Below are positions 1,139-13,308 of a DNA stretch of 64,000 nt, in pieces (within the stretch, counting starts at the first letter, position 1; the number at the start of each line of letters is the position of its first letter). The stretch covers positions 434,001 to 498,000 of the forward strand of contig NZ_JAAKGS010000002.1 in NCBI RefSeq assembly GCF_011043555.1, in the 5' to 3' direction. Origin of the DNA: Sphingobacterium sp. SGR-19. GTDB lineage: Bacteria > Bacteroidota > Bacteroidia > Sphingobacteriales > Sphingobacteriaceae. Below the pieces are notes generated by a model that saw only the letters and a list, made by a program, of their open reading frames with translations, was not told the DNA's origin and did no database searches. The translations under genes were made by a program, and so were the position numbers.

Positions 1139-1846
1139 ATGCGTTCAGTTTTTCGTTTTAAACAGTTTGAGGTAGATCAAGGCAATTGTGCGATGAAAAT
1201 TAATACGGATGGTGTACTGTTGGGTAGCTCAACGTATTTTCCCGACGCGAGACGTATATTGGATATCGGAACGGGTACGGGTGTTATTGCATTGATGCTC
1301 GCGCAAAGTCATCCCCATGCCTTTATCGATGCTGTCGAAATTGAAGAGGATGCTTATCAGCAAGCCAATATTAATTTTCAAAAATCAGATTTTGCGGAAC
1401 GTCTGCAGGTGTTTCTAGGCTCATTTGTGGATCTTCAACCGGAATTAGCTTATGATTTGATCGTATCGAATCCACCATTTTATACCAATTCACTTCATAA
1501 TCCCGATACACGAAAACGTCTAGCAAAACATACGGACATGTTATTTTTTGAAAAACTGTTGTCTTTTGTATCGCGCTACTTAACAGATAACGGGCAATTT
1601 AAGCTGATCATTCCGTCTGCGTTGGCAGACGAAGCGATTGCTCCGATTCTTTCCGATTACAAGCTGTATATACAACATGAAACGACTATATCTTCTTTTT
1701 CGGGGGAAATCCCGATTAGGAAAGTATGGGGGATTGGAAAGAAGGCACGACCTCTAGAAACGCAGGATTTTCATATTTATGCAGATAGAGGAATTTATTC
1801 CGACCACTATAAAACGTTATTGAAACCTTATTTTTTAGCGTTCTGA
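1139..1846 (+). CDS. trmN6: tRNA1(Val) adenine-N6 methyltransferase (TrmN6/YfiC)
   Basis: This 235-residue protein is a class I SAM-dependent methyltransferase that should methylate N6 of A37 in tRNA1(Val). The N-terminus (FRFKQF..., residues 4-10) and the INTDGVLLG segment (21-29) are typical of the YfiC group. SAM motif I is LDIGTGTGV (41-49) and the amino-methyltransferase motif IV is NPPF (111-114). Length is close to the family norm. The gene ends 1 nt before the phosphoesterase gene, so the two are probably co-transcribed. The start is set by the conserved N-terminus; it is preceded by a -7 box at 4 nt and a repeat hairpin at 23 nt. Confidence 0.92.
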   Translation: MRSVFRFKQFEVDQGNCAMKINTDGVLLGSSTYFPDARRILDIGTGTGVIALMLAQSHPHAFIDAVEIEEDAYQQANINFQKSDFAERLQVFLGSFVDLQPELAYDLIVSNPPFYTNSLHNPDTRKRLAKHTDMLFFEKLLSFVSRYLTDNGQFKLIIPSALADEAIAPILSDYKLYIQHETTISSFSGEIPIRKVWGIGKKARPLETQDFHIYADRGIYSDHYKTLLKPYFLAF

Positions 1847-1847
1847 C

Positions 1848-2342
1848 ATGAGAAAAATTGGACTTATATCGGATACCCATGGTTTTCTTGATGATGCTGT
1901 TTTCAAATATTTCGATCAGTGTGACGAGATATGGCATGCGGGTGATTTCGGGTCTGTCGCTATAGCAGATACGTTAGCGGCTTTTAAGCCTTTTAAGGGC
2001 GTATGGGGTAATATCGATGGAAAAGATGTACGTGTAGCATGTCCCGAGCATCAACGTTTTTATTGTGAAGAGGTAGATGTATGGATGACGCATATTGGAG
2101 GCTATCCAGGGCGTTACTCGGCGCAAGTGAAACCTGAGATCGTTCTTAATCCACCAAAGCTTTTTATCTGTGGACATTCCCATATCTTAAAAGTACAGTT
2201 TGATCCGAAACTGGGGTTACTGCATCTCAATCCGGGTGCCGCAGGTAAGCAAGGATGGCATAAGGTGCGTACGTTAATGCGTTTCGATATCAATGGTGAT
2301 AAGATAGAAAACTTGGAAGTGATCGAATTGGGAATACGATAG
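1848..2342 (+). CDS. YfcE/MJ0936-family metallophosphoesterase
   Basis: The 164-residue protein carries the calcineurin-like phosphoesterase motifs in order: DTH (9-11), a GD at 32-33 in HAGDFG, GNxD (54-57), and GHSH near residue 110 followed by NPGA. These residues bind the two catalytic metals, and the family hydrolyses phosphodiesters in the cytoplasm; the physiological substrate is not known. The gene starts 1 nt after trmN6 and probably belongs to its transcript. Confidence 0.88.
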   Translation: MRKIGLISDTHGFLDDAVFKYFDQCDEIWHAGDFGSVAIADTLAAFKPFKGVWGNIDGKDVRVACPEHQRFYCEEVDVWMTHIGGYPGRYSAQVKPEIVLNPPKLFICGHSHILKVQFDPKLGLLHLNPGAAGKQGWHKVRTLMRFDINGDKIENLEVIELGIR

Positions 2343-2352
2343 GTCGCGAGTC

Positions 2353-2688
2353 CTACAGGCTATCTCGAACCTCGAGTAAGAACTTTTTTAACCGTTCCAA
2401 CGAATCAATAACCCGCTGATTCTCTTTTACTTCATTTTTGTTGGATCGGATATAATCTCTTGCGCCTTGTAGGGTGTAGCCTTTATCTTTTACCAGATTG
2501 AAGATAATTTTGAGGTTGGCGATGTCCTCTTGTGTGAAAAGACGGTTCCCCTTTTTGTTCTTTTTCGGTTGTATAATATCGAACTCCCGTTCATAAAAAC
2601 GTATCTGTGATGCATTTACACCGAACATAGCGGTTACCTCACCCATGGTATAGTATAACTTGTTTATTTCACGTTCTTTGTACGGCAT
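2353..2688 (-). CDS. MerR-family transcriptional regulator
   Basis: The 111-residue protein has the MerR winged-helix DNA-binding domain: YTMGEVTAMFGVNASQIRFY (about 12-31) is the helix-turn-helix and the start of the wing, and GNRLFTQEDI follows at about 48. The C-terminus is a short helical dimerisation segment with no effector-binding domain and no Cys, so no ligand can be inferred. This short form is widespread in Bacteroidota near yfiC-like genes. It converges on the phosphoesterase gene with a 10-nt gap. Its target is unknown. Confidence 0.85.
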   Translation of the reverse strand: MPYKEREINKLYYTMGEVTAMFGVNASQIRFYEREFDIIQPKKNKKGNRLFTQEDIANLKIIFNLVKDKGYTLQGARDYIRSNKNEVKENQRVIDSLERLKKFLLEVRDSL

Positions 2689-2729
2689 ATCTTCCGAGAA
2701 TTTGTAACCTTAACAAACAAATATACAAT

Positions 2730-3347
2730 CTAAGTTTGGATTTTAAAAAAGTTTCCCCCCAACCATTCTTCTTCTAAGGTAAATGAGATCAACCAATCTG
2801 CGTGGTCAGCGAAAATCATAACGTCGCCATGCCAGGGGTTGAATAGATCCTCGTGTTCGTGGTTGGAAAGTTCGGTAAGAGATAGTTGCAGTACAACCCC
2901 ATAGTTTAGGTAATATACGTAGACTTGTTGATCCATTAGACCGAGTTCCTGTATTACTCGGTGTAATCCATTGCGGGCACCATCCGACGAGACGCCATGG
3001 TAATTTGCATACTCCGGTAAATCTGGTACATAGCGCAAAGGGTTAATAGACGGGAACCGATCGAATATGGTATTGATCAAATGTGCCAAATGGAACTTTT
3101 GCAGGTGATCCGGCTGGAATCCGTAAGCATCGTAGGGAGTTTGAGTTATAGTTTGTTCTACATGGACATGATATTCCGCAGGTACGTATGCGAGTCCGGC
3201 GATTTGGTAAGCGACCCCCTGCTGGCGTATACAATCGAATATCTCCTGCATAGGTTTTATATACTGGTCTATATACGCTTCTGCTTTTATCTTTACCTGT
3301 AGCTGTTGGCGTTTTTGCTCGAGTTGTATACGTTTGTCGTTGTTCAT
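2730..3347 (-). CDS. uncharacterised cytoplasmic protein next to serpin-like gene
   Basis: I set the start at the ATG 3347, giving 205 residues; a farther upstream start at 3407 would overlap the serpin-like gene by 37 nt. There is no signal peptide and no membrane segment. The N-terminal 35 residues are a charged helix rich in Gln and Lys. The rest mixes aromatic and acidic residues, with a C-terminal WHGDVMIFADHADWLISFTL segment ending the domain. I do not recognise a family; the C-terminus vaguely recalls small immunity-type proteins, which I do not claim. It lies 23 nt downstream of the serpin-like gene on the same strand, so the two probably form an operon. Confidence 0.6.
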   Translation of the reverse strand: MNNDKRIQLEQKRQQLQVKIKAEAYIDQYIKPMQEIFDCIRQQGVAYQIAGLAYVPAEYHVHVEQTITQTPYDAYGFQPDHLQKFHLAHLINTIFDRFPSINPLRYVPDLPEYANYHGVSSDGARNGLHRVIQELGLMDQQVYVYYLNYGVVLQLSLTELSNHEHEDLFNPWHGDVMIFADHADWLISFTLEEEWLGGNFFKIQT

Positions 3348-3370
3348 CGTTGTTCTTTTGTGTCGCTGGT

Positions 3371-4399
3371 TTATTTTATCTCCAATAACTCGGTATTGTT
3401 GATCCATAGCACGAGGTAGGGAGAAAGGTTATCATCCTTTTTTTTGACGATGATATAAAAAGGTTTATCTAGCATCATAGTTTTCGGTGTGAATGCAGCT
3501 CGAGGCAAACCATTCCTATCCACCTCCTTGTTCATTTCAGCCGCCAGTTTAGTACCTGTTTCGTTCAATAAAAAGGCTACTGACTGGTGTACACTTGCCA
3601 ATGTCAACTGCTCCTCTCCATTTTGTAATATACTGCCAGATAGTTGTGGATACGCTCCTTGAACACCGAGTACTATCCGAGGGATGGCGACCCGGTCGTA
3701 TGGAGTCCAGCTATAACGCCATAGACGATCCGGGACGGTCATGTCCGCACGGCCGTGCTGGATTTCGTCTTGTAGACCCGTATACATCGCCGCCAACGTA
3801 GTGTACTTTTTATCGGTTTTGTAGATTAAGACCTGTTGCTGCCGGTCTGTCGGTAACAGTCCGATAATAAAATGATTATCGTCGCGGTAGCGGTGGATTT
3901 CGATTTGCTTATGTAGATGGTCAAAGGAGTTTTCGCTCATACCAAATGCCTCCACTGGAATGCCACTAAATGTCGTGCCGGATGCCATGTGTTCAAAATA
4001 CGGTTCAAAAAGGATGGTGGCATCCAATGTTGCGGTTATGGAGATCGTGTTTTCTTGGCGATGGACGGTTGCTTGAAATTGCTCAACATCTACGCCGTTT
4101 TTATCAACCGCGGCGTAGGCGAGCTGTTGTAGCGTGGGTGATTGCTCATCGGCACGGATGGTATTTCCAAGTTGTTCCTGTAAAGAGGACCACAGCAGAG
4201 GTAAGCTGGCATACACCGCATTTTTATCACAAGCCAGTGGTTGTTCCATTGTAGGGAGCCATATTGTCTTGGGATAACTTGCCGGAGGCAAGGTGGCGGG
4301 AAGTTGTTGAAGTTGGCCTTTTGTTGCGACACCGCAAGATATAATTAGAAAGCATAAGTAAAGAAAGAGAATAGGGCGTAAAATATACTGCAACATCAT
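3371..4399 (-). CDS. serpin-like lipoprotein
   Basis: The 342-residue protein starts with a hydrophobic signal and a lipobox IISC (Cys22), so it should be a lipid-anchored cell-envelope protein. The C-terminal two thirds align by eye with the serpin fold. ATLDATILFEPYF (123-135) sits where serpins have the central strand 'NaiyFkg.W..pF'. HFIIGLLP (176-183) matches the 's.vilLP' strand. A reactive-loop hinge LNETGTKLAAEM (278-289) compares with the consensus 'vnEeGTeAaAaT'. The closing strand is MMLDKPFYIIV (308-318), compared with 'DrPFlfli'. The classic serpin N-terminal helices are short or missing, and the hinge has Leu and Glu where inhibitory serpins prefer small residues. It is divergently transcribed from two caspase-family genes. 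Serpin membership is inferred by eye and needs a profile search. Confidence 0.55.
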   Translation of the reverse strand: MMLQYILRPILFLYLCFLIISCGVATKGQLQQLPATLPPASYPKTIWLPTMEQPLACDKNAVYASLPLLWSSLQEQLGNTIRADEQSPTLQQLAYAAVDKNGVDVEQFQATVHRQENTISITATLDATILFEPYFEHMASGTTFSGIPVEAFGMSENSFDHLHKQIEIHRYRDDNHFIIGLLPTDRQQQVLIYKTDKKYTTLAAMYTGLQDEIQHGRADMTVPDRLWRYSWTPYDRVAIPRIVLGVQGAYPQLSGSILQNGEEQLTLASVHQSVAFLLNETGTKLAAEMNKEVDRNGLPRAAFTPKTMMLDKPFYIIVKKKDDNLSPYLVLWINNTELLEIK

Positions 4400-4552
4400 T
4401 TTTAAATTAACCTATACGGATTTCCAATCTCTCGAGACCAAGCTAAGCTACGCAAACATTTTTAACAAAAGAATACCCAATAATGGGTATTTTTTATGCT
4501 GATTATTCTATTTATTTTGGTGCCTATATACATTTTAAAGATAATATAACCG

Positions 4553-5524
4553 ATGAGCAATATTAACCCTTTTCTGCGCACAGCACTTATTATGGCCTGC
4601 TGTACGACCTTGTGCTATCTATATACCGGCTGTATCGGATCCAAATACGGATCAAAAAAGAAGGCAGAACGTCATACCGCGGCACTCACCCCAGAAAAAG
4701 AAGTGATCACCTACGCGATGGTGATGGACTACGGTCCACAAGCCGCCTATTGGGCTGCGTTGGGCCGAGGTGAACCGGCGAGGGGATTGCTGCCGGGCAC
4801 TGATAAATTAATTTCACTAGCTACCGATGGAATCCATAAACTCATCGAGAATGACAAGAAGAAGTACCAGGCTGACTACAGCTTTGCGCTCAACGATATG
4901 TATTTCTACGATAAGAATTCTACCAATGCGGTGTTTGATCCGATCGGTATGCAGTTCACCGGTTTTGAAGTAACCCGTACGTTTGCCAACGCCGAAGGCC
5001 AAACAGATACGGCTATGCATGCAGTGTTTGAACCCATTTTGGACAATCCTGAAGAAATTTATCAGAACGCGATTTTCCGCCTCAAGCTAAAGGAAATTAA
5101 GCTCAACTATGCCAAAGCAAAGGTTCCGTTCAATAACGGAAAGAAGCTGAATCTAGATTTTGAAATTAGTCTCTATACATCGTATGTGTCGCAGCAAGGT
5201 ACGTTAAATGAACGAGTGAAACTGGGAACTTTTATCTATAGCCTCCGCGACGCACCGCTCGATAAATCAGATGATGGTTATGCTATATACTATGCTCGAC
5301 ATGCGGATAAGCCTTGTAAAGGACAAAGTTTTATCGTGCCACGCTCCTATAGTTATTACCTAGACGAAGCGGGCGAACCGGCGCACTTGTACAGCCGTGG
5401 TCTATATTCCATTGTCGTCAAAGTAAAGGAATCCTCCAAAGACGTTTTTGTGAATAAAATATTGATGGAAAATAGTGGTGTGCTCATTGATGCCGCAGGC
5501 AAGGGCATCAAATCGCTTCAATAA
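4553..5524 (+). CDS. predicted lipoprotein of unknown function, first gene of caspase operon
   Basis: The 323-residue protein has a hydrophobic N-terminus ending in YTGC (Cys27), a loose lipobox, so it is probably anchored to the envelope; a plain signal peptide is the alternative. The region after residue 40 alternates beta-like segments and short helices and has an aromatic run YSYYLDEAGEPAHLYSRG near 270. No catalytic motif or known domain was recognised. The gene ends 12 nt before the first caspase gene, which overlaps the second, so the three look like one operon. The upstream gap to the divergent serpin-like gene is 153 nt and must hold both promoters. Codon choice is GC-richer than in the flanking housekeeping genes. 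Confidence 0.7.
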   Translation: MSNINPFLRTALIMACCTTLCYLYTGCIGSKYGSKKKAERHTAALTPEKEVITYAMVMDYGPQAAYWAALGRGEPARGLLPGTDKLISLATDGIHKLIENDKKKYQADYSFALNDMYFYDKNSTNAVFDPIGMQFTGFEVTRTFANAEGQTDTAMHAVFEPILDNPEEIYQNAIFRLKLKEIKLNYAKAKVPFNNGKKLNLDFEISLYTSYVSQQGTLNERVKLGTFIYSLRDAPLDKSDDGYAIYYARHADKPCKGQSFIVPRSYSYYLDEAGEPAHLYSRGLYSIVVKVKESSKDVFVNKILMENSGVLIDAAGKGIKSLQ

Positions 5525-5536
5525 CCCAGGTACGCT

Positions 5537-7579
5537 ATGAAACAATTGTTTTTCTACTTAAGCTTGTTACTTGGAGTTGGGCTGCTATCGTTTAGTCAGG
5601 GAACGGCTCAAACTAAACGGGCATTGGTCATCGCCATTGGTGAGTATAAAGATCATGGTCCAGGCAAATCTTGGTCATCTATTTCCAGCGTTAACGATAC
5701 GGCATATATCCTGCCTGCATTGCGCCGTCAGGGTTTCACCGGAGACGATACGCGGCTTCTACTAAACGAACAGGCTACAATGACGGGCATCCGATCGGCT
5801 TTTGACCACTTGGTTCGCGACGCCGGACCGGGCGATGTCGTAACCATCCATATTAGTGCCCATGGAGCCCAGATTGAAGATGACAACGGGGATGAAATCG
5901 ATGGACTCGACGAGACCATTGTGAGCTATGGTGCACAACTGCCCCCGCGAACGGCTACTACTGATTTTGAAACGCTACAGCTGGATTATTTCCGTGATGA
6001 TGAGTTTGGGGGATATATGCAGCAGCTGCGCGAGCGGCTTGACAGCGAGGGAGATATTGTGGTCTTCATGGACAATTGTCATTCGGGCAGCGGCACGCGT
6101 GGAACGGCCATTGTACGAGGCGGCGCGCCACCATTGCTGTCACCCAAATTTGATGCCGGTAGATATCGCTTGCAGGATGAAGGTGTGTTTCAGGAACCCG
6201 GTTCGAGGGGTGGCGGTGATAATCTCGCAAGCTATGTTGTTATTAGCGCCTCACGAGCGGAAGAGCTCAATTACGAGACCCGCGATGAGCAAGGCCGAGG
6301 TGTGGGGACACTTACCTTGGCTGTTAGTAAGGCCTTGGAGAACTTGGTTCCCGGAACGACCTACCGCAATTTCTACGCTCAGGTGCAGGCAACCGTCAAT
6401 CAGCGGGCTGCCCGGCAGAATCCAGTGATTGAAGGTACCGGGTTGGATCGCGAACTGTTTGGGGGCGATCTTGTACAGCAGACATCCTATTTCGAGGTGA
6501 GCCGTATTGCACCCTCGGGTACCGATATCGAGATTCGTGCCGGACTGCTAAACGGGCTTGCCGATAGTGCGGTGGTAGCCATTTACCCTAGCGGTACGAC
6601 CTCTATGGAGGCCGGTAAACCTATTGCCGAGGGATTGGTGACGCGTGCCAGTAATTTCTCGGCGACCGTAAAGCTAGACGCACCTTTGGGACTTAGACAT
6701 TCCGAGCGAGCGAAAGCGTGGGTTTTCCTTAAAAGTAAAACCAGTAAATTGTCGCCCGTTGTACTGGCTTTTGCAGATCCGAATCCTACGCGAGGGGGGA
6801 TATCGAACCACCTTTCCGCGGCTGAAATCGAAACCTACCGCGCTGCGCTAGCAGATATGCCGATTGTTTCTTTTGAAGGTCCGCCGGATCTGGCTTTAGT
6901 GCGCGGCCAATATGGACCTGTATTGAAGATGGCTGGCGATGGACAGGATTTTGTGGAAGTAGCGGATGAATACGATCTTCAGGAACGGATCCGGGATTTT
7001 ACACGTTATCAATTTTTGCGATCCCTGTATGATGGCGATAATGGCATGTTAGACATACAGCTGATCCCAGTAGTCAATGGTCGTCCGGATACCACGGCTA
7101 TTCCAGCCTATATGGATCTTGGACAATATGCATTTGCCCCAGGGGATGAGTTTGTGCTGCGGATTAAAAATAAGACCCGCTGGCCCGTATACGTCAATGT
7201 GTTGGATCTCCAACCTAATGGGGTGATTAATGCTATTTTTCCAAATACGCAGGTTCACCCACCTATTACACCGGAAGAACTCCGCATTGAAGGCTACGGT
7301 GAACGGTTATTCGATCAGTTTCCTATTGCAATCGGTCCACCATATGGCATCGAAACATTCTTGTTTTTTGCTTCACGTGAATTGATTAATCTGGAGCAGG
7401 TAGCGACACCAAAATCGGTACGAAACGGCGCAAGGGGCGTACTTACCGATTTGGAATCGTTAGTTTCGACTGCCTTCGATGAGGAGATGACCAGCCGAGG
7501 AGGCACCAGTAGCAGCAAAGCCGCTACATCAGATGGTAGCATCTCCTCCGTGGTGTTCAAGATCGTGGAAAAAAGATGA
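5537..7579 (+). CDS. secreted caspase-family (C14) protein with DUF4384-like C-terminus
   Basis: The 680-residue protein begins with a signal peptide (about 1-25, ending in GTAQ). The caspase p20-like domain follows directly: RALVIAIGEY (28-37), the catalytic His109 in HISAHGAQ, an acidic loop EDDNGDEIDGLDET (114-127) typical of metacaspase-type proteins, and the catalytic Cys181 in DNCHSGSG. Both dyad residues are intact, so it should be an active Cys peptidase in the periplasm or outside the cell. After a linker, residues about 525-620 (VLRIKNKTRWPVYVNVLDL, then FPN) resemble DUF4384, a beta domain often fused to caspases. It starts 12 nt after the lipoprotein gene and overlaps the next caspase gene by 4 nt. 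The substrate is unknown; metacaspase-type enzymes usually cut after Arg or Lys. Confidence 0.88.
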   Translation: MKQLFFYLSLLLGVGLLSFSQGTAQTKRALVIAIGEYKDHGPGKSWSSISSVNDTAYILPALRRQGFTGDDTRLLLNEQATMTGIRSAFDHLVRDAGPGDVVTIHISAHGAQIEDDNGDEIDGLDETIVSYGAQLPPRTATTDFETLQLDYFRDDEFGGYMQQLRERLDSEGDIVVFMDNCHSGSGTRGTAIVRGGAPPLLSPKFDAGRYRLQDEGVFQEPGSRGGGDNLASYVVISASRAEELNYETRDEQGRGVGTLTLAVSKALENLVPGTTYRNFYAQVQATVNQRAARQNPVIEGTGLDRELFGGDLVQQTSYFEVSRIAPSGTDIEIRAGLLNGLADSAVVAIYPSGTTSMEAGKPIAEGLVTRASNFSATVKLDAPLGLRHSERAKAWVFLKSKTSKLSPVVLAFADPNPTRGGISNHLSAAEIETYRAALADMPIVSFEGPPDLALVRGQYGPVLKMAGDGQDFVEVADEYDLQERIRDFTRYQFLRSLYDGDNGMLDIQLIPVVNGRPDTTAIPAYMDLGQYAFAPGDEFVLRIKNKTRWPVYVNVLDLQPNGVINAIFPNTQVHPPITPEELRIEGYGERLFDQFPIAIGPPYGIETFLFFASRELINLEQVATPKSVRNGARGVLTDLESLVSTAFDEEMTSRGGTSSSKAATSDGSISSVVFKIVEKR

Positions 7580-10500
7580 TGAACAAATTCCTGTTATTCC
7601 GGTTAATCGCCGTACTGACCTTTGTAGGTCTTCTCTTCGATGGTCACGCGCAAGTGCGACAGTCCCGCTTCGCGCCGGCGTTGGGCAATACACAGCAAAT
7701 AACAGCATCCTATTTCGACCGGGATTCGGCGATGCTTTTTGCTTATGATGCCTCGGGTACCGTGGTCGTATGGGATACGGATAATATGCGTCCTATACGT
7801 AGTTTCCCGACAGTTCCTATGGATATCTGGAATCCAATCGTCCAGCCAACGGCGACTTCGTTCTACCAGTCCAATATCGATATCCACGTCAACCGGAACA
7901 AATTCTGGGTTATGCGGACGGATTCTTTTGATAACGGCAAAAATGGCGTATATGATGTTTACGGTCGCGTGTCGGGTACGCATTTCTACCAGTCGGACAC
8001 GACCGTGACCACAGAGCGTATACATTTATTGCGAAAGGACAATGGCTTAGCGCTAATACGTAGCGGCAAAAAGCCATTCTATGAAAATGGAGGTGTATTT
8101 TGGGGCGCTTTAGCTGTCTATATCGACGATAGCGCCCGCACGGTCAATCTAAAACAGCCGGGAGCGGTCTGCCTCCGGCTCTCCCCCGATGAAAGCAAGA
8201 TTGCTATTGGATATGAGTGGGGCGGGGTAGAGGTGTTTGATATGCAAAACCTCAAATGTATATTCCGCTCGGAACGACCCGCGGAGTATGTAGCGCGGGA
8301 GGTCAACGATATCTTGTTTCTACCCAACGATCGGGGTATCGTCTATACATATAAATACAGTTCACCATATGCGGTATTTGTGCACAAATTCATAGATACG
8401 TCCCCATATTCGCAAGCTGTACAGCTGAGTGGTGAATTCGCTGCAGGGAAACTTGCCGCGGCCTTGTCGCCTTCCGGCCGTTATTTGGCAATAGCTGGTC
8501 GTTCTACGCTTGATATTTATGATTTGGAAACCGAGACAAAAGTCTTTACACAATCTACCAGCTACGGAAACCTCGGGCTCGATATCGCGAATGGTCTGCA
8601 CTTTCTCAACGACGACATTCTATTATTGGCAGGAAAGGCTCAGGAAGAAAATATCTACCAGTGGTATATGCAAAACACCGGAGCCGGACTGTATAAATTC
8701 GATTGGAAAGCAGGGATCAGATCAGCGAATTATGCTAGGGACAATGCGCGAATGGGCGCGCTGCTTGGAGGTACCCTTAGTGCCGTGGGCGACTATAGTT
8801 TCCGTATCCACGATTTTTCTGGCGGATACATCAGTAGTTGGTCACATGTGATGACACCGAGTAGGTTGGAAAACCGATTCCTGCATTATGGTACAGGGCT
8901 ATCTATGGAGGTAAGCGATTTTTTGAATCGTAACCAGTTGCCCCAAAGATCGTTCAACGATACGTTGCAGGCAGGACAGCAAAGATACGGACTGCTTATT
9001 GACGATGCTTTGCCCGAAACAAGTTGGTTGGCGACCGCGTTGGTTGGCGATAGTGCCGCACTGCTTCGGATTGACAGTACCCAAACGGGTTTTGAGGGCT
9101 TTATTTCCTTTAAACATCTGCATGGATATGAACTTAAACGAATCCACTCGGGGCGACAGTTCCTGATTTGGCAGAAAACGACTCACGTACGGAGCAATAT
9201 GTTTACCCAGCAACTTGCGGTGAGTAACATGGACGGTAGGGTCTTGCTGGCCGATTCAATACAGTTTTTTGCGGAATCGCCTTATCTGTTTTCGAAAGAT
9301 GGTGCGTGGTTGGCCTATAGACGCAGCAACGCTGAAATAGTATATGTGTCTACCGACCGCTTTGACGATAAGCATGTTCTGCAAACCGGACTGGACGCGT
9401 CGTATTATATGCCCAATCGGCTTCAGTTTGACAGCGCTTCCGCCCGATTTGCGTTTCAGCAGTACAATCCCGATGGACTGCAGACGTTTACGCTGGCTCA
9501 AGTGGTATTAAACAGCCATGCTACAGATACCTTGGCGACAATCCCTATACGGCCTCTTGTCTTTGCATTAACAACAGACTTTAAGCATTTGGCGTTGTCT
9601 TACTCCTTCAATGTGGTGAATGAGGAGTTAGTGGGCGACAGTACACGTTTAGCGCGCGCAGTGTCATTCGGCATGCGCAATGAATATCAACCTACTATCC
9701 TGCTTATGGATGTAGGGACGGATAATTATCGCGCTATCCCTACGCGTGGTGGCTATCCGGCAACACAGCTGCTGGTCGACGACCGACGGATTACTGCGTT
9801 ACAGCAAGACGGATTGCTTTATTATTATGATCTGGGCGATACCAATAAAGTAGTGTCTCATCAATTGGAAGGTGTTTCACAAAGTTTCTTTACCGATTCC
9901 TGCTATTTCGCCACGGAAGAGTTGGTGCCGCAGATTAACTTCCTATCAGCCTTCGACTACCATCCCGTAGGTCGGCAGGATGTATATTACAATAGACCGC
10001 ATACCTTTTTACGGCTATTTGGCGACGATCGTAGTGTGACCGCTGCGCTTTATGAAAAAGCTTACGAGAAGCGGTTACGGCAATATGACTACGACTTCAG
10101 CGACGCTGCTGTCAATAGCGTTCCACCGCGTATTCGGATAGAACCAGCTATTGGTATTGGATTCCACACGCACGCCGACCAGTTGGAGATTCCGGTGTAT
10201 TTGGACGGAGGATCGCCGATTGAACACCTTTTTGTTACCGTCAATGGGTATGCTATTCACGGTAAAGCAGGTCTGACAGTTGCGCACCGTACACGTGAGC
10301 TCAGGGTAAAGGTTCCGCTGGATTCGGGGCATAACCACATTCAACTGCAGGCAGTCAGTGCAGATCATCGCTACGCCCCGCCTGTCAATTTGCAATATCG
10401 TGCGGATTTTACGCAAGTTAAGAAACCCAGAACATTGTGGTTACTCGCTGCGGGTGTATCCGACTATCAGGACACTACTCAACGACTCCAATTTGCCGCG

Positions 10501-11448
10501 AAGGATGCCCAAGATATGACGCGCGTGTTCACCTATAAAGAAAACTACGACACGGTGGTTGTCCGCACACTTCTCAACGAGCAGGTACAGCGTGATGCAC
10601 TGCTTAAAGAAATACAGATGGCGTCCACTCTTGGTAAAGACGACGTCTTCATTCTATATCTTGCTGGTCATGGCTTGTTGGATGATGACGCTAACTTCCA
10701 CTATGCCACGTACAATATGGATTTTGACAGGCCTGCCGCATATGGTCTAGCTTACGAAACGCTTATGTCGACACTGGAACAATTATCCGTGCGTAACAAG
10801 CTGTTGCTGTTGGATGCCTGCCATAGTGGACTGGTGGATCGTAGTACGGTCAGCATCGGCCGTGCCGACGCTGTTACCTCTGAGGGGACAGTCAGTGTTC
10901 AGGGAGCCCGAGGTGGGGGTGTCAGAAACACGAATACAACGGTTCGTCTACGGGAGCAGGATGTGTTCTTATTTATGCAACAAACGTTTTCGTCTTTGGC
11001 GTATGATAACCATGTGAGTGTACTTTCGGCCGCTTTGGGCAACAACTTGGCATTGGAAAACAACCGTCTACAGAACGGACTTTTTACTTATGCGCTCATC
11101 AAAGGGCTCGGTTTGGCGAAGGCGACTGATCGCTATAATGTTCAGGGCGATTTGATGACCATAGCGATGGATGACAGTACGGCCAAACGGGAGTACGGTG
11201 AATCTTCTACCGTAACGGTGCCCCAGCTTCAGCATTATATACAGCGGGAAGTGCAACGCCTGAGCCGTGGATATCAGGTGCCGAGTTTCACACTTAGTCG
11301 TAATGCCGAAAATATCTGGTTTTCTGAGAGTTCCTTTCCACGATACCTATATACCTTCAGTTATCAACCATTGGAAGGTGAGTCAAAATTAAGCGACGAA
11401 GAGAAATATAAATTGTTTTTAGACCGGTATAAAGAATTCAGAAAGTAA
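7576..11448 (+). CDS. large exported protein: beta-propeller-like repeats plus C-terminal caspase (C14) domain
   Basis: The 1290-residue protein has a signal peptide (about 1-25). Residues about 30-820 are built of short beta segments with WD40-like phrases (GTVVVWDTD, LSPDESKIAIGYEWGGVEVFD, LSPSGRYLAIAG), consistent with one or two beta-propellers for protein binding. A beta-sandwich linker spans about 850-945. The C-terminal caspase domain has the dyad His1032 (LAGHGLLDD) and Cys1082 (DACHSGL), both intact. The start ATGA overlaps the stop of the previous caspase gene, suggesting translational coupling. Propeller plus caspase fusions are known in Bacteroidota and Cyanobacteria. Here the propeller may recruit the target or sense a signal, while the 680-residue partner may be the co-processed protease. 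Confidence 0.85.
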   Translation: MMNKFLLFRLIAVLTFVGLLFDGHAQVRQSRFAPALGNTQQITASYFDRDSAMLFAYDASGTVVVWDTDNMRPIRSFPTVPMDIWNPIVQPTATSFYQSNIDIHVNRNKFWVMRTDSFDNGKNGVYDVYGRVSGTHFYQSDTTVTTERIHLLRKDNGLALIRSGKKPFYENGGVFWGALAVYIDDSARTVNLKQPGAVCLRLSPDESKIAIGYEWGGVEVFDMQNLKCIFRSERPAEYVAREVNDILFLPNDRGIVYTYKYSSPYAVFVHKFIDTSPYSQAVQLSGEFAAGKLAAALSPSGRYLAIAGRSTLDIYDLETETKVFTQSTSYGNLGLDIANGLHFLNDDILLLAGKAQEENIYQWYMQNTGAGLYKFDWKAGIRSANYARDNARMGALLGGTLSAVGDYSFRIHDFSGGYISSWSHVMTPSRLENRFLHYGTGLSMEVSDFLNRNQLPQRSFNDTLQAGQQRYGLLIDDALPETSWLATALVGDSAALLRIDSTQTGFEGFISFKHLHGYELKRIHSGRQFLIWQKTTHVRSNMFTQQLAVSNMDGRVLLADSIQFFAESPYLFSKDGAWLAYRRSNAEIVYVSTDRFDDKHVLQTGLDASYYMPNRLQFDSASARFAFQQYNPDGLQTFTLAQVVLNSHATDTLATIPIRPLVFALTTDFKHLALSYSFNVVNEELVGDSTRLARAVSFGMRNEYQPTILLMDVGTDNYRAIPTRGGYPATQLLVDDRRITALQQDGLLYYYDLGDTNKVVSHQLEGVSQSFFTDSCYFATEELVPQINFLSAFDYHPVGRQDVYYNRPHTFLRLFGDDRSVTAALYEKAYEKRLRQYDYDFSDAAVNSVPPRIRIEPAIGIGFHTHADQLEIPVYLDGGSPIEHLFVTVNGYAIHGKAGLTVAHRTRELRVKVPLDSGHNHIQLQAVSADHRYAPPVNLQYRADFTQVKKPRTLWLLAAGVSDYQDTTQRLQFAAKDAQDMTRVFTYKENYDTVVVRTLLNEQVQRDALLKEIQMASTLGKDDVFILYLAGHGLLDDDANFHYATYNMDFDRPAAYGLAYETLMSTLEQLSVRNKLLLLDACHSGLVDRSTVSIGRADAVTSEGTVSVQGARGGGVRNTNTTVRLREQDVFLFMQQTFSSLAYDNHVSVLSAALGNNLALENNRLQNGLFTYALIKGLGLAKATDRYNVQGDLMTIAMDDSTAKREYGESSTVTVPQLQHYIQREVQRLSRGYQVPSFTLSRNAENIWFSESSFPRYLYTFSYQPLEGESKLSDEEKYKLFLDRYKEFRK

Positions 11449-11562
11449 CAACTTAGGAATAACTACGTCAGAGGCATCGAAGAGATAGCCTTAGATAGCT
11501 ATCGAAAAAATTAATACATTTCCTCTATAAAATAAGCCTTGAATGGCAGAGGAGCGAAATAG

Positions 11563-11607
11563 ATTCATTTTATATACTGCGCAATTAAGTTGCATATAAA
11601 AATGAAT
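11563..11607. repeat. A/T-rich inverted repeat in the gap after the caspase operon
   Basis: ATTCATTTTATAT (11563-11575) is complementary, with one bulge, to ATATAAAAATGAAT (11594-11607), enclosing an inner GCGCAATTAAGTTGC. It has no downstream T-run, so a terminator role is doubtful. It lies in the 326-nt gap 11449-11774, which otherwise holds one possible small ORF and the promoter of the next gene. Confidence 0.45.
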
Positions 11608-11623
11608 TTATTTAGGTTTGAGT

Positions 11624-11737
11624 ATGCATATACTTACATGGACAATAGGAAGGGAGGAGATTGTTATCCTATCCATTTTGGTTATCATATTGGTTTTTTT
11701 CGGGATTGTTTTTAGTCGTTTGTTGAAGAGGAAGTAA
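11624..11737 (+). CDS. possible 37-residue membrane protein resembling a TatA N-terminus
   Basis: An ATG ORF of 37 codons encodes a charged start with TIGREEIVIL, a hydrophobic helix of about 18 residues ending FFG, and a basic tail SRLLKRK. The pattern G-x-E, then a short transmembrane helix, then FG, then a basic amphipathic start is that of TatA-type proteins. The long amphipathic helix of real TatA is missing. A purine-rich stretch lies inside rather than before the ORF. The -33 box of the next gene's promoter overlaps its last codons, which weakens the case. It could be a real single-pass microprotein, a tatA remnant, or chance. Confidence 0.3.
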   Translation: MHILTWTIGREEIVILSILVIILVFFGIVFSRLLKRK

Positions 11738-11750
11738 TGCGTACCTTTGC
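11719..11750 (+). promoter_or_regulatory. promoter of the deoxyhypusine-synthase-like gene
   Basis: TTTG (11719-11722), a 19-nt spacer, then TACCTTTGC (11742-11750) match the Bacteroidota -33/-7 consensus TTTG-N19-TAnnTTTG exactly. The predicted start of transcription is near 11755, leaving a leader of about 20 nt before the ATG at 11775. Confidence 0.7.
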
Positions 11751-11774
11751 TAATAGAATAGAAAACTTGAAACT

Positions 11775-12755
11775 ATGAGTACACAAAAAGGTCCTATTTC
11801 TCAATTTATAGAGAAAAACTACTTACATTTCAACGCAGCTGCTTTGGTAGATGCGGCTAAAGGATATGAGACCCACCTATTGGAAGGAGGAAAGATGTTA
11901 ATCTCTTTGGGCGGTGCTATGAGTACAGCCGAATTAGGAATTTCACTGGCGGAAATGATCCGTCAAGATAAAGTCCATATTATTTCTTGTACTGGTGCGA
12001 ATTTGGAAGAAGATGTAATGAATTTAGTCGCGCATTCCCATTATAAGCGTGTACCCAATTATCGTGATCTGACGCCGGAGCAAGAGCGTGAATTGTTAGA
12101 CCAGCATTATAACCGCGTAACGGATACCTGTATTCCGGAAGAGGAAGCTTTTCGCCGTTTACAGAAGCATTTAGAAGATGTTTGGCATGCTGCTGAGGAA
12201 AAAGGCGAACGCTATCTGCCTCATGAGTTTCTATATCAAGTGGTGAATTCGGGTGTATTGGAACAATACTACGAAATTGATCCGAAGAACTCTTGGATTG
12301 TCGCCGCGGCGGAGAAAAACCTTCCTATCGTATGTCCGGGATGGGAGGATTCTACAACGGGAAATATCTTTGCTTCCAATGTAATTAAAGGTAATCTGAA
12401 AGCCAGCACAGTGAAGTCAGGTATTGAATATATGATCTATTTAACCGAATGGTATCGTGCTAATTCCGGTGGTAAAGGCGTAGGATTCTTCCAGATTGCT
12501 GGTGGTATATCCGGAGATTTTCCTATCTGTGTTGTACCGATGATGTACCAGGATCTAGAATGGGAAGATGTACCTTTTTGGGCTTACTTCTGTCAGATAT
12601 CGGATTCAACGACTTCTTATGGTTCGTATTCAGGTGCGGTTCCCAATGAGAAAATTACTTGGGGTAAATTGGATATAGATACACCGAAGTTTGTAGTGGA
12701 GTCTGATGCTACTATTGTGGCGCCGTTGATTTTCTCTTATATTTTAGGACATTAA
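11775..12755 (+). CDS. deoxyhypusine synthase family protein
   Basis: The 326-residue protein matches the deoxyhypusine synthase fold throughout. It has an NAD-binding segment around MLISLGGAMSTAELG (40-54), HIISCTGANLEED (73-85) and, near the C-terminus, ITWGKLDIDTPKFVVESDA. The Lys of the WGK motif is the residue that forms the enzyme-imine intermediate. Bacteria lack eIF5A, and characterised bacterial homologues are often homospermidine synthases that transfer the aminobutyl group of spermidine or putrescine to putrescine. A polyamine role is therefore likelier than hypusination. It has its own strong promoter. No other polyamine gene is adjacent; the following gene is of unknown function. 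Confidence 0.85.
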   Translation: MSTQKGPISQFIEKNYLHFNAAALVDAAKGYETHLLEGGKMLISLGGAMSTAELGISLAEMIRQDKVHIISCTGANLEEDVMNLVAHSHYKRVPNYRDLTPEQERELLDQHYNRVTDTCIPEEEAFRRLQKHLEDVWHAAEEKGERYLPHEFLYQVVNSGVLEQYYEIDPKNSWIVAAAEKNLPIVCPGWEDSTTGNIFASNVIKGNLKASTVKSGIEYMIYLTEWYRANSGGKGVGFFQIAGGISGDFPICVVPMMYQDLEWEDVPFWAYFCQISDSTTSYGSYSGAVPNEKITWGKLDIDTPKFVVESDATIVAPLIFSYILGH

Positions 12756-12777
12756 TCTTTCTTCCCTCCCTCTCCCT

Positions 12778-13308
12778 ATGAGTCATTTGAAAACAGACAA
12801 CCCTGTTGCACTTCAAGCGTTAATGTCAGAAACTCTTTTCGTTTCCAAAAAGGAAGAAGTAGCTGTAGCTTCACGGTCAGGAAATGTCGTGGATGAGACC
12901 AAAGGAGGAGAGGGAGCAGAATTTATTTACCAAGGCGATAAATCTACGGGTATATTATTTATCTTACGTTATCCTGATTATCCTTATTTTTCACCACAAG
13001 CGGAAGAGGCTTTTGTGAAAACCTTAGGTGCGCTCCATCTGTCGTTTAAAAATGTAGCGGTCGTTAATTTGGCAAATCCGCACAATCCCAACGATTTTAA
13101 GCGGATTATGCAGTTTTTTGAACCGACCAAGATTACCTTGCTTGGTGTCGAACCCGTCTCGCTCAAGCTTCCCGACATTGCACACAACGCGTATATGAAA
13201 GGACGGGTGGCGACAGTCTTCAATACCTTCAGCTTTGAGGAGATGTTTGCTGATGTACAAAAGAAAAAAATGTTCTGGAACGAATTTAAGACGTTTATTA
13301 ATTCGTAG
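12778..13308 (+). CDS. conserved protein of unknown function upstream of rdgB
   Basis: The 176-residue protein is soluble with no signal peptide. It has a beta strand GILFILRYPDYPYF (about 59-72), an alternating alpha/beta centre with VAVVNLANPHNP (about 93-104) and ITLLGVEP (about 119-126), and a basic C-terminal helix (KKKMFWNEFKTF). This looks like a small Rossmann-like domain. I do not recognise the family. It sits 22 nt after the deoxyhypusine-synthase-like gene and 16 nt before rdgB on the same strand, so it is probably part of the same transcript. Confidence 0.75.
   Translation: MSHLKTDNPVALQALMSETLFVSKKEEVAVASRSGNVVDETKGGEGAEFIYQGDKSTGILFILRYPDYPYFSPQAEEAFVKTLGALHLSFKNVAVVNLANPHNPNDFKRIMQFFEPTKITLLGVEPVSLKLPDIAHNAYMKGRVATVFNTFSFEEMFADVQKKKMFWNEFKTFINS

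Follow-up and report, generated by a model that had tools for sequence, protein, structure and literature searches.

Do a serpin-like protein and the caspases encoded beside it form a protease/inhibitor pair in a bacterium? The question is raised by a locus of Sphingobacterium sp. SGR-19, in a 64,000-nucleotide stretch of DNA (contig NZ_JAAKGS010000002.1, positions 434,001 to 498,000; hereafter, the window), in which the gene of a divergent serpin-like lipoprotein (SERP) is transcribed away from the genes of a second lipoprotein (LIPO) and of two exported caspase-family proteins (CASA and CASB). An earlier note on this DNA had proposed that these genes constitute a caspase-serpin system analogous to the viral caspase inhibitor CrmA. 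Our comparisons with related genomes make it probable that two independent cargoes, one consisting of SERP and its partner gene P205 and the other of LIPO, CASA, and CASB, lie side by side in one variable chromosomal site. Most likely, SERP and the caspases are neighbours by accident, through a shared insertion site, and it is unlikely that they are dedicated to each other as protease and inhibitor. The features of the locus, in coordinates of the window, are as follows.

2353..2688, minus strand: MerR-like regulator gene, bounding the variable site on the left (Pfam MerR_1, 73.1 bits)
2730..3347, minus strand: P205, partner gene of SERP (longest open reading frame 2730-3407; an internal ATG was chosen as the start, matching the start of its homolog)
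3371..4399, minus strand: SERP, divergent serpin-like lipoprotein, 342 aa
4553..5524, plus strand: LIPO, lipoprotein of the caspase module, 323 aa
5537..7579, plus strand: CASA, exported caspase-family peptidase (C14) with a C-terminal DUF4384-like region, 680 aa
7576..11448, plus strand: CASB, exported beta-propeller protein with a C-terminal caspase domain, 1290 aa
11775..12755, plus strand: DS, deoxyhypusine-synthase-family gene, right border of the variable site (Pfam DS, 134.9 bits)
2730..11616, strand not applicable: DNA missing from five relatives (ends approximate; from blastn, gene order, and the G+C of the caspase genes)

The variability of the site was evident from the eight genomes whose DS genes were most like that of the window. 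In five of them (G014, G007, G013, G076, and G034) the site was empty, the MerR-like gene directly adjoining the DS gene, and blastn comparison of these empty sites with the window indicated that the extra DNA runs from about 2730 to about 11616, with a short matching patch at 11503-11521 in one relative. The remaining three, S. micropteri (G031), S. corticibacterium (G070), and Sphingobacterium sp. FBM7-1 (G020), carried serpin-like genes without caspase A (the homolog of CASA) at this site, within insertions of ~47, ~14, and ~24 kb, respectively. An OmpA-like gene, two types of serpin-like genes, and an FGE-type gene were present in all three insertions, and Hsp70, Sel1-repeat, and WG-repeat genes were present in those of G031 and G020. 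A further relative, G085, had a serpin-like gene at another site, again with Hsp70, WG-repeat-like proteins, and P205; G031 and G070 likewise had P205 next to their serpin-like gene, and in G020 P205 was not labelled there. P205 matched no Pfam family and shared 68% identity, counted from residue 21, with its G031 homolog (L041:8702-9307). In the tree, the window SERP clustered with the S. micropteri and S. corticibacterium copies (support 100/100), the window CASA formed a long branch (1.96) with no supported neighbour, and the CASA homologs of G031 and G070 clustered with that of G360. Because the insertions of the relatives at this site hold serpin-like genes without caspase A, the likeliest reading of the window is that SERP-P205 is what remains of such a larger insertion, or its minimal version, and that LIPO-CASA-CASB is a second, separate cargo of the same site. 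Both P205 and the position of the whole span between the MerR-like and DS genes were missing from the earlier note, which had given the open reading frame coordinates, the 4-nt overlap of CASA and CASB, and the 153 nt between the divergent starts of SERP and LIPO as we found them.

The G+C contents of CASA (0.510) and CASB (0.483) were above that of positions 13995-64000 (0.413), and those of the other genes were 0.451 for LIPO, 0.458 for SERP, 0.439 for P205, and 0.418 for DS. Repeats within 2340-11800 were short imperfect pairs, and no evident attachment site was seen there. No described system was recognised in the insertions of G031 (stretches L069, L070, and L041), which also held a vWA protein, and of G020 (L071 and L042). 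For the N-terminal parts of the island proteins (WG-repeat and related), a DnaJ-like label given by eye had no Pfam support and was not used.

Linkage of the serpin-like gene with caspase A was not conserved elsewhere. In the genus sample (93 genomes), the serpin-like gene was found in five genomes and a full-length caspase A match in three, with weak domain matches in three more. The two genes were on different contigs in G031 and G070, where caspase A lay far from the contig ends and adjoined the gene of a 306-aa lipoprotein, and G020 and G085 carried the serpin-like gene with no caspase A match. Outside the genus, neither a serpin nor a serpin-like gene was observed in any of 12 caspase-A stretches, and caspase A was observed in none of seven serpin-like stretches. 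In total, a serpin relative was near 0 of 14 other caspase-A loci (the 12 together with G031 and G070), and caspase A was near 0 of 11 other serpin-like loci (the seven together with G031, G070, G020, and G085). For these counts, the caspase-A context was taken from 12 of the 14 non-own genomes with matches of at least 365 bits (G232 and G265 were left out), stretches L119, L127, L131, and L135 end at contig ends, and G352, which carries an ordinary serpin, was removed from the serpin-like counts. The earlier note had set beforehand that a lack of conserved linkage would refute its protease/inhibitor system, and such a lack is what the loci examined displayed. The serpin-like gene was instead accompanied by P205 and, in three genomes, by Hsp70 and WG-repeat genes, and caspase A by its lipoprotein, another caspase, or a trypsin-like protease.

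The claim that the C-terminus of SERP reads as a serpin fared better, and descent from serpins was strongly supported, with great divergence. Residues 255-324 of SERP matched Pfam Serpin (PF00079) at 17.7 bits (E 0.0023), under the 27-bit cut-off, and two relatives gave sub-threshold matches at the equivalent place (20.6 and 13.5 bits); being below the gathering score, SERP is named here a serpin relative and not a Pfam Serpin member. Alignment of the SERP family with 12 ordinary Bacteroidota serpins by hhalign scored 77.3 (E 1.1e-9, probability 96.4, residues 162-338), whereas 100 column shuffles reached no more than 25.0, a reversed alignment 18.3, and an unrelated alignment 24.0. This comparison used 10 of the 11 rows of the family alignment, omitting L132, which was wrongly bounded at both ends and stayed in the alignment for hinge scoring, the tree, and the phylum-sample search. 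Detection with hidden Markov models (HMMs) succeeded both ways, the ordinary-serpin HMM detecting SERP proteins (E 3.8e-5 to 8.8e-4) and the SERP HMM detecting the ordinary serpin L136 (E 4.8e-5), and when a six-member SERP profile was compared with PDB sequences, the serpin PAI-1 accounted for 15 of 18 rows (best E 0.0016).

The structural check on the serpin fold, which had been suggested along with that claim, gave a mixed picture: the model of an ortholog matched serpins, and the window model had no significant match. The AlphaFold model of the window SERP, from six sequences, had a pLDDT of 37.8 and no significant Foldseek match (E at least 0.06). The model of the S. corticibacterium ortholog, trimmed to its mature part, was still of low confidence (pLDDT 48.5); with it, Foldseek gave 28 matches at E <= 0.001, serpins making up all 50 of the best rows listed, and with a second aligner the 50 listed rows were serpins by title (best Z 7.5, weak alone). 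It is highly improbable that SERP is unrelated to serpins and resembles them by chance or convergence. Such a reading could draw on the Pfam score under the cut-off, on the N-terminal half, which by itself scored 15.4 against serpins, within the shuffle range (up to 21.7), on the low confidence of both models, the first having no significant fold match, and on the SERP HMM, which, of the two ordinary serpins present in the searched set, detected one and missed L086; it is opposed by the hhalign score far above the shuffles, the two-way HMM detection, the PAI-1 rows, and the serpins that filled the Foldseek rows listed for the second model. Sequence and model comparisons thus support, with high confidence, a serpin descent of SERP with extreme divergence, and SERP likely adopts the whole serpin fold.

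Several serpin-like copies were truncated, split, or interrupted by stops (L042:7973-8860, L054:12949-13464, L131, L133, and L056), and such broken copies in several genomes suggest that the family is decaying or turning over. No serpin-like relative was observed in 17 viral-contig stretches that matched the scan patterns. The genome of the window also encodes an ordinary lipoprotein serpin (G000:C31:65912-67009; L086:8784-10034) with a hinge match of 6/7, near which no caspase was apparent in the 19-kb stretch read.

Whether SERP could inhibit a protease depends on its reactive loop. Inhibitory serpins are described as having the hinge ExGTEAAAA at P17-P9 (PMC8233489). Over seven scored positions, the twelve ordinary serpins matched this hinge at 5-7, the window SERP at 5, its two closest orthologs at 4, and the other eight relatives at 1-3. 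The window SERP keeps Glu at P17, Gly at P15, Thr at P14, and Ala at P11 and P10, and departs from the hinge with a bulky Leu at P12 and a charged Glu at P9. On these counts, the classical suicide mechanism seems doubtful in the SERP family as a whole, though the window SERP may still be capable of it. We consider it unlikely that SERP, as an atypical inhibitory serpin, acts independently of the caspases on a different protease (e.g., a trypsin-like one), either periplasmic or incoming: the five hinge residues kept by the window-type SERP favour this role, and the ordinary good-hinge serpin of the same genome makes serpin inhibition plausible in this organism, but the residues at P12 and P9 argue against it, and the hinges of paralogs and distant kin (1-4/7), most of whose genes are open, suggest another function. 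For a family that mostly lacks the inhibitory hinge, a binding or structural role in the system of its own insertion appears more likely than suicide inhibition of a caspase.

The second cargo encodes two exported caspase-family proteins with intact dyads, in agreement with the earlier note. Both exceeded the Pfam Peptidase_C14 cut-off of 21.4 (49.9 bits for CASA and 54.6 bits for CASB); CASA also had a sub-threshold DUF4384 match (24.1 vs 27), and beta-propeller matches preceded the caspase domain of CASB (959-1241 of 1290). The CASA dyad His109/Cys181 was invariant in 15/15 aligned caspase-A rows, and the CASB dyad His1032/Cys1082 was also present in the single aligned homolog. Signal sequences, those of both caspases included, were recognised by eye, and Gln follows the apparent signal-peptidase site in CASA (by pattern) and in CASB (by eye), as expected from the Bacteroidetes Q-rule (PMC5837995); the strict pattern of site then Gln near the signal end was found in 7/15 CASA rows. 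Neither SERP nor LIPO has acidic residues in the five positions after the lipoprotein Cys, and, because they have no surface-export signal of the kind described for lipoproteins of three other Bacteroidetes (PMC5080379), both are predicted to face the periplasmic side. Neither Pfam nor NCBIfam gave a match for LIPO at E up to 1. Type IX export of the caspases was considered and dropped, as Pfam at E up to 1 gave no such C-terminal family. Characterised non-animal C14 peptidases are described as cleaving after Arg/Lys and not Asp (PMC5756287), and by analogy CASA would probably do the same, which makes the comparison with CrmA inapt, the linkage and hinge results also speaking against it. In a plasmid search, CASA partly matched 121 records, but no single place in any of them covered 80% of the query.

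Homologs of CASA at 365 bits or more were present in 15 of the 295 sampled genomes of the class Bacteroidia, the genome of the window included. A trypsin-like protease gene adjoined caspase A in 6/12 loci outside the genus (L117, L119, L120, L123, L124, and L126), from four families of the class; three of these proteases were scanned and were Trypsin_2 by Pfam, and their signals were seen by eye. Small proteins of ~140-180 aa with signal-like starts recurred near the trypsin-like/caspase-A pairs. In G289, a LIPO ortholog lay directly behind caspase A (29% identity, E 4e-29), and a second caspase matching CASB by BLAST was found near CASA homologs in L118, L119, L121, and L124, that of L121 having its caspase domain in front, unlike CASB. 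What recurs is an exported caspase, accompanied variously by the lipoprotein, another caspase, and, in those six loci, the trypsin-like protease.

Such a module might also be an anti-phage or suicide-type conflict system, which we regard as a minority possibility. Both proteins matched the PADLOC caspase model (31.7 and 37.4 bits), the caspase associated with EACC1 has a resemblance to CASB (74.6 bits vs a cut-off of 140), caspases and trypsins recur in conflict systems as published (PMC7159879 and PMC10907252), and the module is cargo of a variable site. On the other side are the export signals that we see by eye on both caspases, the C-terminal position of the CASB caspase domain, and the neighbouring window genes scanned, among which there was no EACC1, MoxR, vWA, nucleotide cyclase, or gasdermin. 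In keeping with the earlier note, neither a gasdermin nor a nucleotide cyclase was found beside the locus by PADLOC and Pfam scans of the neighbouring genes (ten genes within 1139-13308 were scanned with Pfam).

For the exported caspase module, we propose that CASA and CASB would act in the periplasm, where LIPO may tether them to a membrane and the CASB propeller may sense or scaffold. CASA, as a putative cutter at basic residues like other non-animal C14 peptidases, could take part in a proteolytic cascade on envelope proteins, in which the trypsin-like protease would, at other loci, be an activator or target.

Several observations weigh against the interpretation as two independent cargoes. 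In the class sample, three genomes had both genes, four the serpin-like gene only, 11 caspase A only, and 276 neither (one-sided Fisher p = 0.0027), and when two broken or split serpin-like genes were set aside, the counts were 2/3/12/277 (p = 0.019); this table comprises 294 genomes, with the own genome left out and G352 not counted as serpin-like, and its statistics ignore kinship. All three genus genomes with full-length caspase A also carried the serpin-like gene, which was present in 5/93 (p = 7.7e-5), four of the five being close kin by DS gene and hence not independent. The window SERP hinge, at 5/7, was the best of its family and level with that of the poorest ordinary serpin (L083). 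As to the module, LIPO was found by sequence in just one other locus of those scanned, its similarity to the 306-aa lipoproteins of G031 and G070 was not significant (BLAST vs G031), and the cascade, localisation, and basic specificity of the caspases are what we infer. Compared with the G289 ortholog of LIPO, the 306-aa lipoprotein gave E 0.022, likewise not significant.

The co-occurrence check thus gave a mixed answer: an association in the class sample, with the three genomes that have both genes coming from three families and linking them in none, and, among 318 genomes of the phylum sample, no further genome with both. New carriers in the latter, a low-power test, were one with the serpin-like gene (G565) and four whose caspase A match reached at least 400 bits (G631, G504, G537, and G533); the only shared genomes were the own genome and G249, both already known, and six further matches (21-39 bits, C-terminal, in 411-450-aa frames) were taken for ordinary serpins. 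On this evidence, it is quite improbable that SERP serves as the dedicated inhibitor of the caspases, trapping CASA or CASB in the envelope much as plant AtSerpin1 acts on metacaspases. The serpin descent of SERP, its divergent position beside the caspases in the window, the unlinked co-occurrence, a hinge equal to that of the poorest ordinary serpin compared, and the metacaspase inhibition by serpins in plants and a green alga (PMC10609998) would fit such a pair; the absence of linkage at all 14 and 11 loci elsewhere, the serpin-like genes of G020 and G085 without caspase A, the P12 and P9 residues with fewer hinge matches in all ten relatives, and the co-occurrence that was not repeated among the new phylum-sample genomes argue against it. 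We nevertheless allow for a serpin-caspase link in trans, because serpins are described as blocking metacaspases in those plants and that alga (PMC10609998). In one form of it, to which we give equally little credence, SERP, although encoded at unlinked sites in other genomes, would be anchored in the envelope and regulate the exported caspase, or its trypsin-like companion of other loci, by binding or trapping it, the unlinked co-occurrence of the two rare genes being the footprint; if true, the plant serpin-metacaspase brake would have its first counterpart in bacteria.

Taken together, the results favour two independent cargoes and weaken the reading of the locus as a bacterial CrmA-like pair, in the place of which stand two leads. 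The first is a family of envelope lipoproteins of serpin descent, with the hinge mostly lost, found together with Hsp70 and WG-repeat genes in variable insertions of large size. The second is the exported caspase module that recurs across Bacteroidia, its companions being a lipoprotein, another caspase, or a trypsin-like protease. Prokaryotic caspases have mostly been treated as intracellular proteases; a recurrent caspase set that is bound for export and includes another protease suggests that cascades of proteolysis operate in the envelope of bacteria.

As for the remainder of the window, a hairpin with T-rich stretches on either strand was seen by eye at 4472-4491, in the gap between SERP and LIPO, and is possibly a terminator or attenuator. 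Terminator-like sites in the window numbered 14 (vs 9.1 in shuffles, sd 2.8) and promoter-like sites 12, below the 16.2 of shuffles; neither count was used as support. An Rfam scan of the window gave nothing reaching the gathering score, and the window held no tRNA. The DS gene, whose family is usually associated with eukaryotes and archaea, was found in 93/93 Sphingobacterium genomes. Ten genes sampled within 16848-58669 had ordinary chromosomal functions, encoding TilS, a protein of RecF/SMC type, a CoA ligase, a pyridine-nucleotide oxidoreductase, two hybrid histidine kinases, a TonB receptor, an outer-membrane barrel, an S46 peptidase, and a DEAD helicase.

Among the matches listed in a search of the open-licence literature there was no bacterial caspase-serpin locus or exported caspase module, which is weak evidence of absence. 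Compared with ordinary bacterial serpins (PF00079), such as miropin and the G000:C31 serpin, SERP is alike in its collinear C-terminal half, similar length, and lipoprotein-type signal; it differs in falling under the Pfam cut-off, in an N-terminal half not alignable above chance, and in a hinge that SERP retains imperfectly and its relatives have for the most part lost. The inhibition of AtMC9 and AtMC1 by AtSerpin1 and of CrMCA-I by CrSERPIN was, as reported, found by experiment (PMC10609998). Like these plant and algal pairs, the present organism combines a serpin relative with caspase-fold peptidases, but here the linkage is not conserved and the SERP hinge is imperfect. The EACC1-caspase two-gene system (Kaur et al. 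2020, PMC7159879) also unites a caspase with an upstream membrane-associated partner, and CASB is a partial NCBIfam match to its caspase; in that system, as described, the EACC1 gene stands in front and the caspase lies at the N-terminus of the second protein. Membership was rejected for the present locus, in which no EACC1 was found, the CASB caspase is C-terminal behind the propeller and reached 74.6 of 140 bits, and there are export signals. Finally, WD40-type repeats, likely signal peptides, and multi-caspase operons were already described for prokaryotic caspases, Bacteroidetes included (PMC3501461). CASA and CASB share with the prokaryotic caspase homologs and orthocaspases, as these are described (PMC3501461 and PMC5756287), a C14 p20 domain with the His/Cys dyad; what distinguishes the module here is an exported caspase with a recurrent lipoprotein and trypsin-like neighbour.

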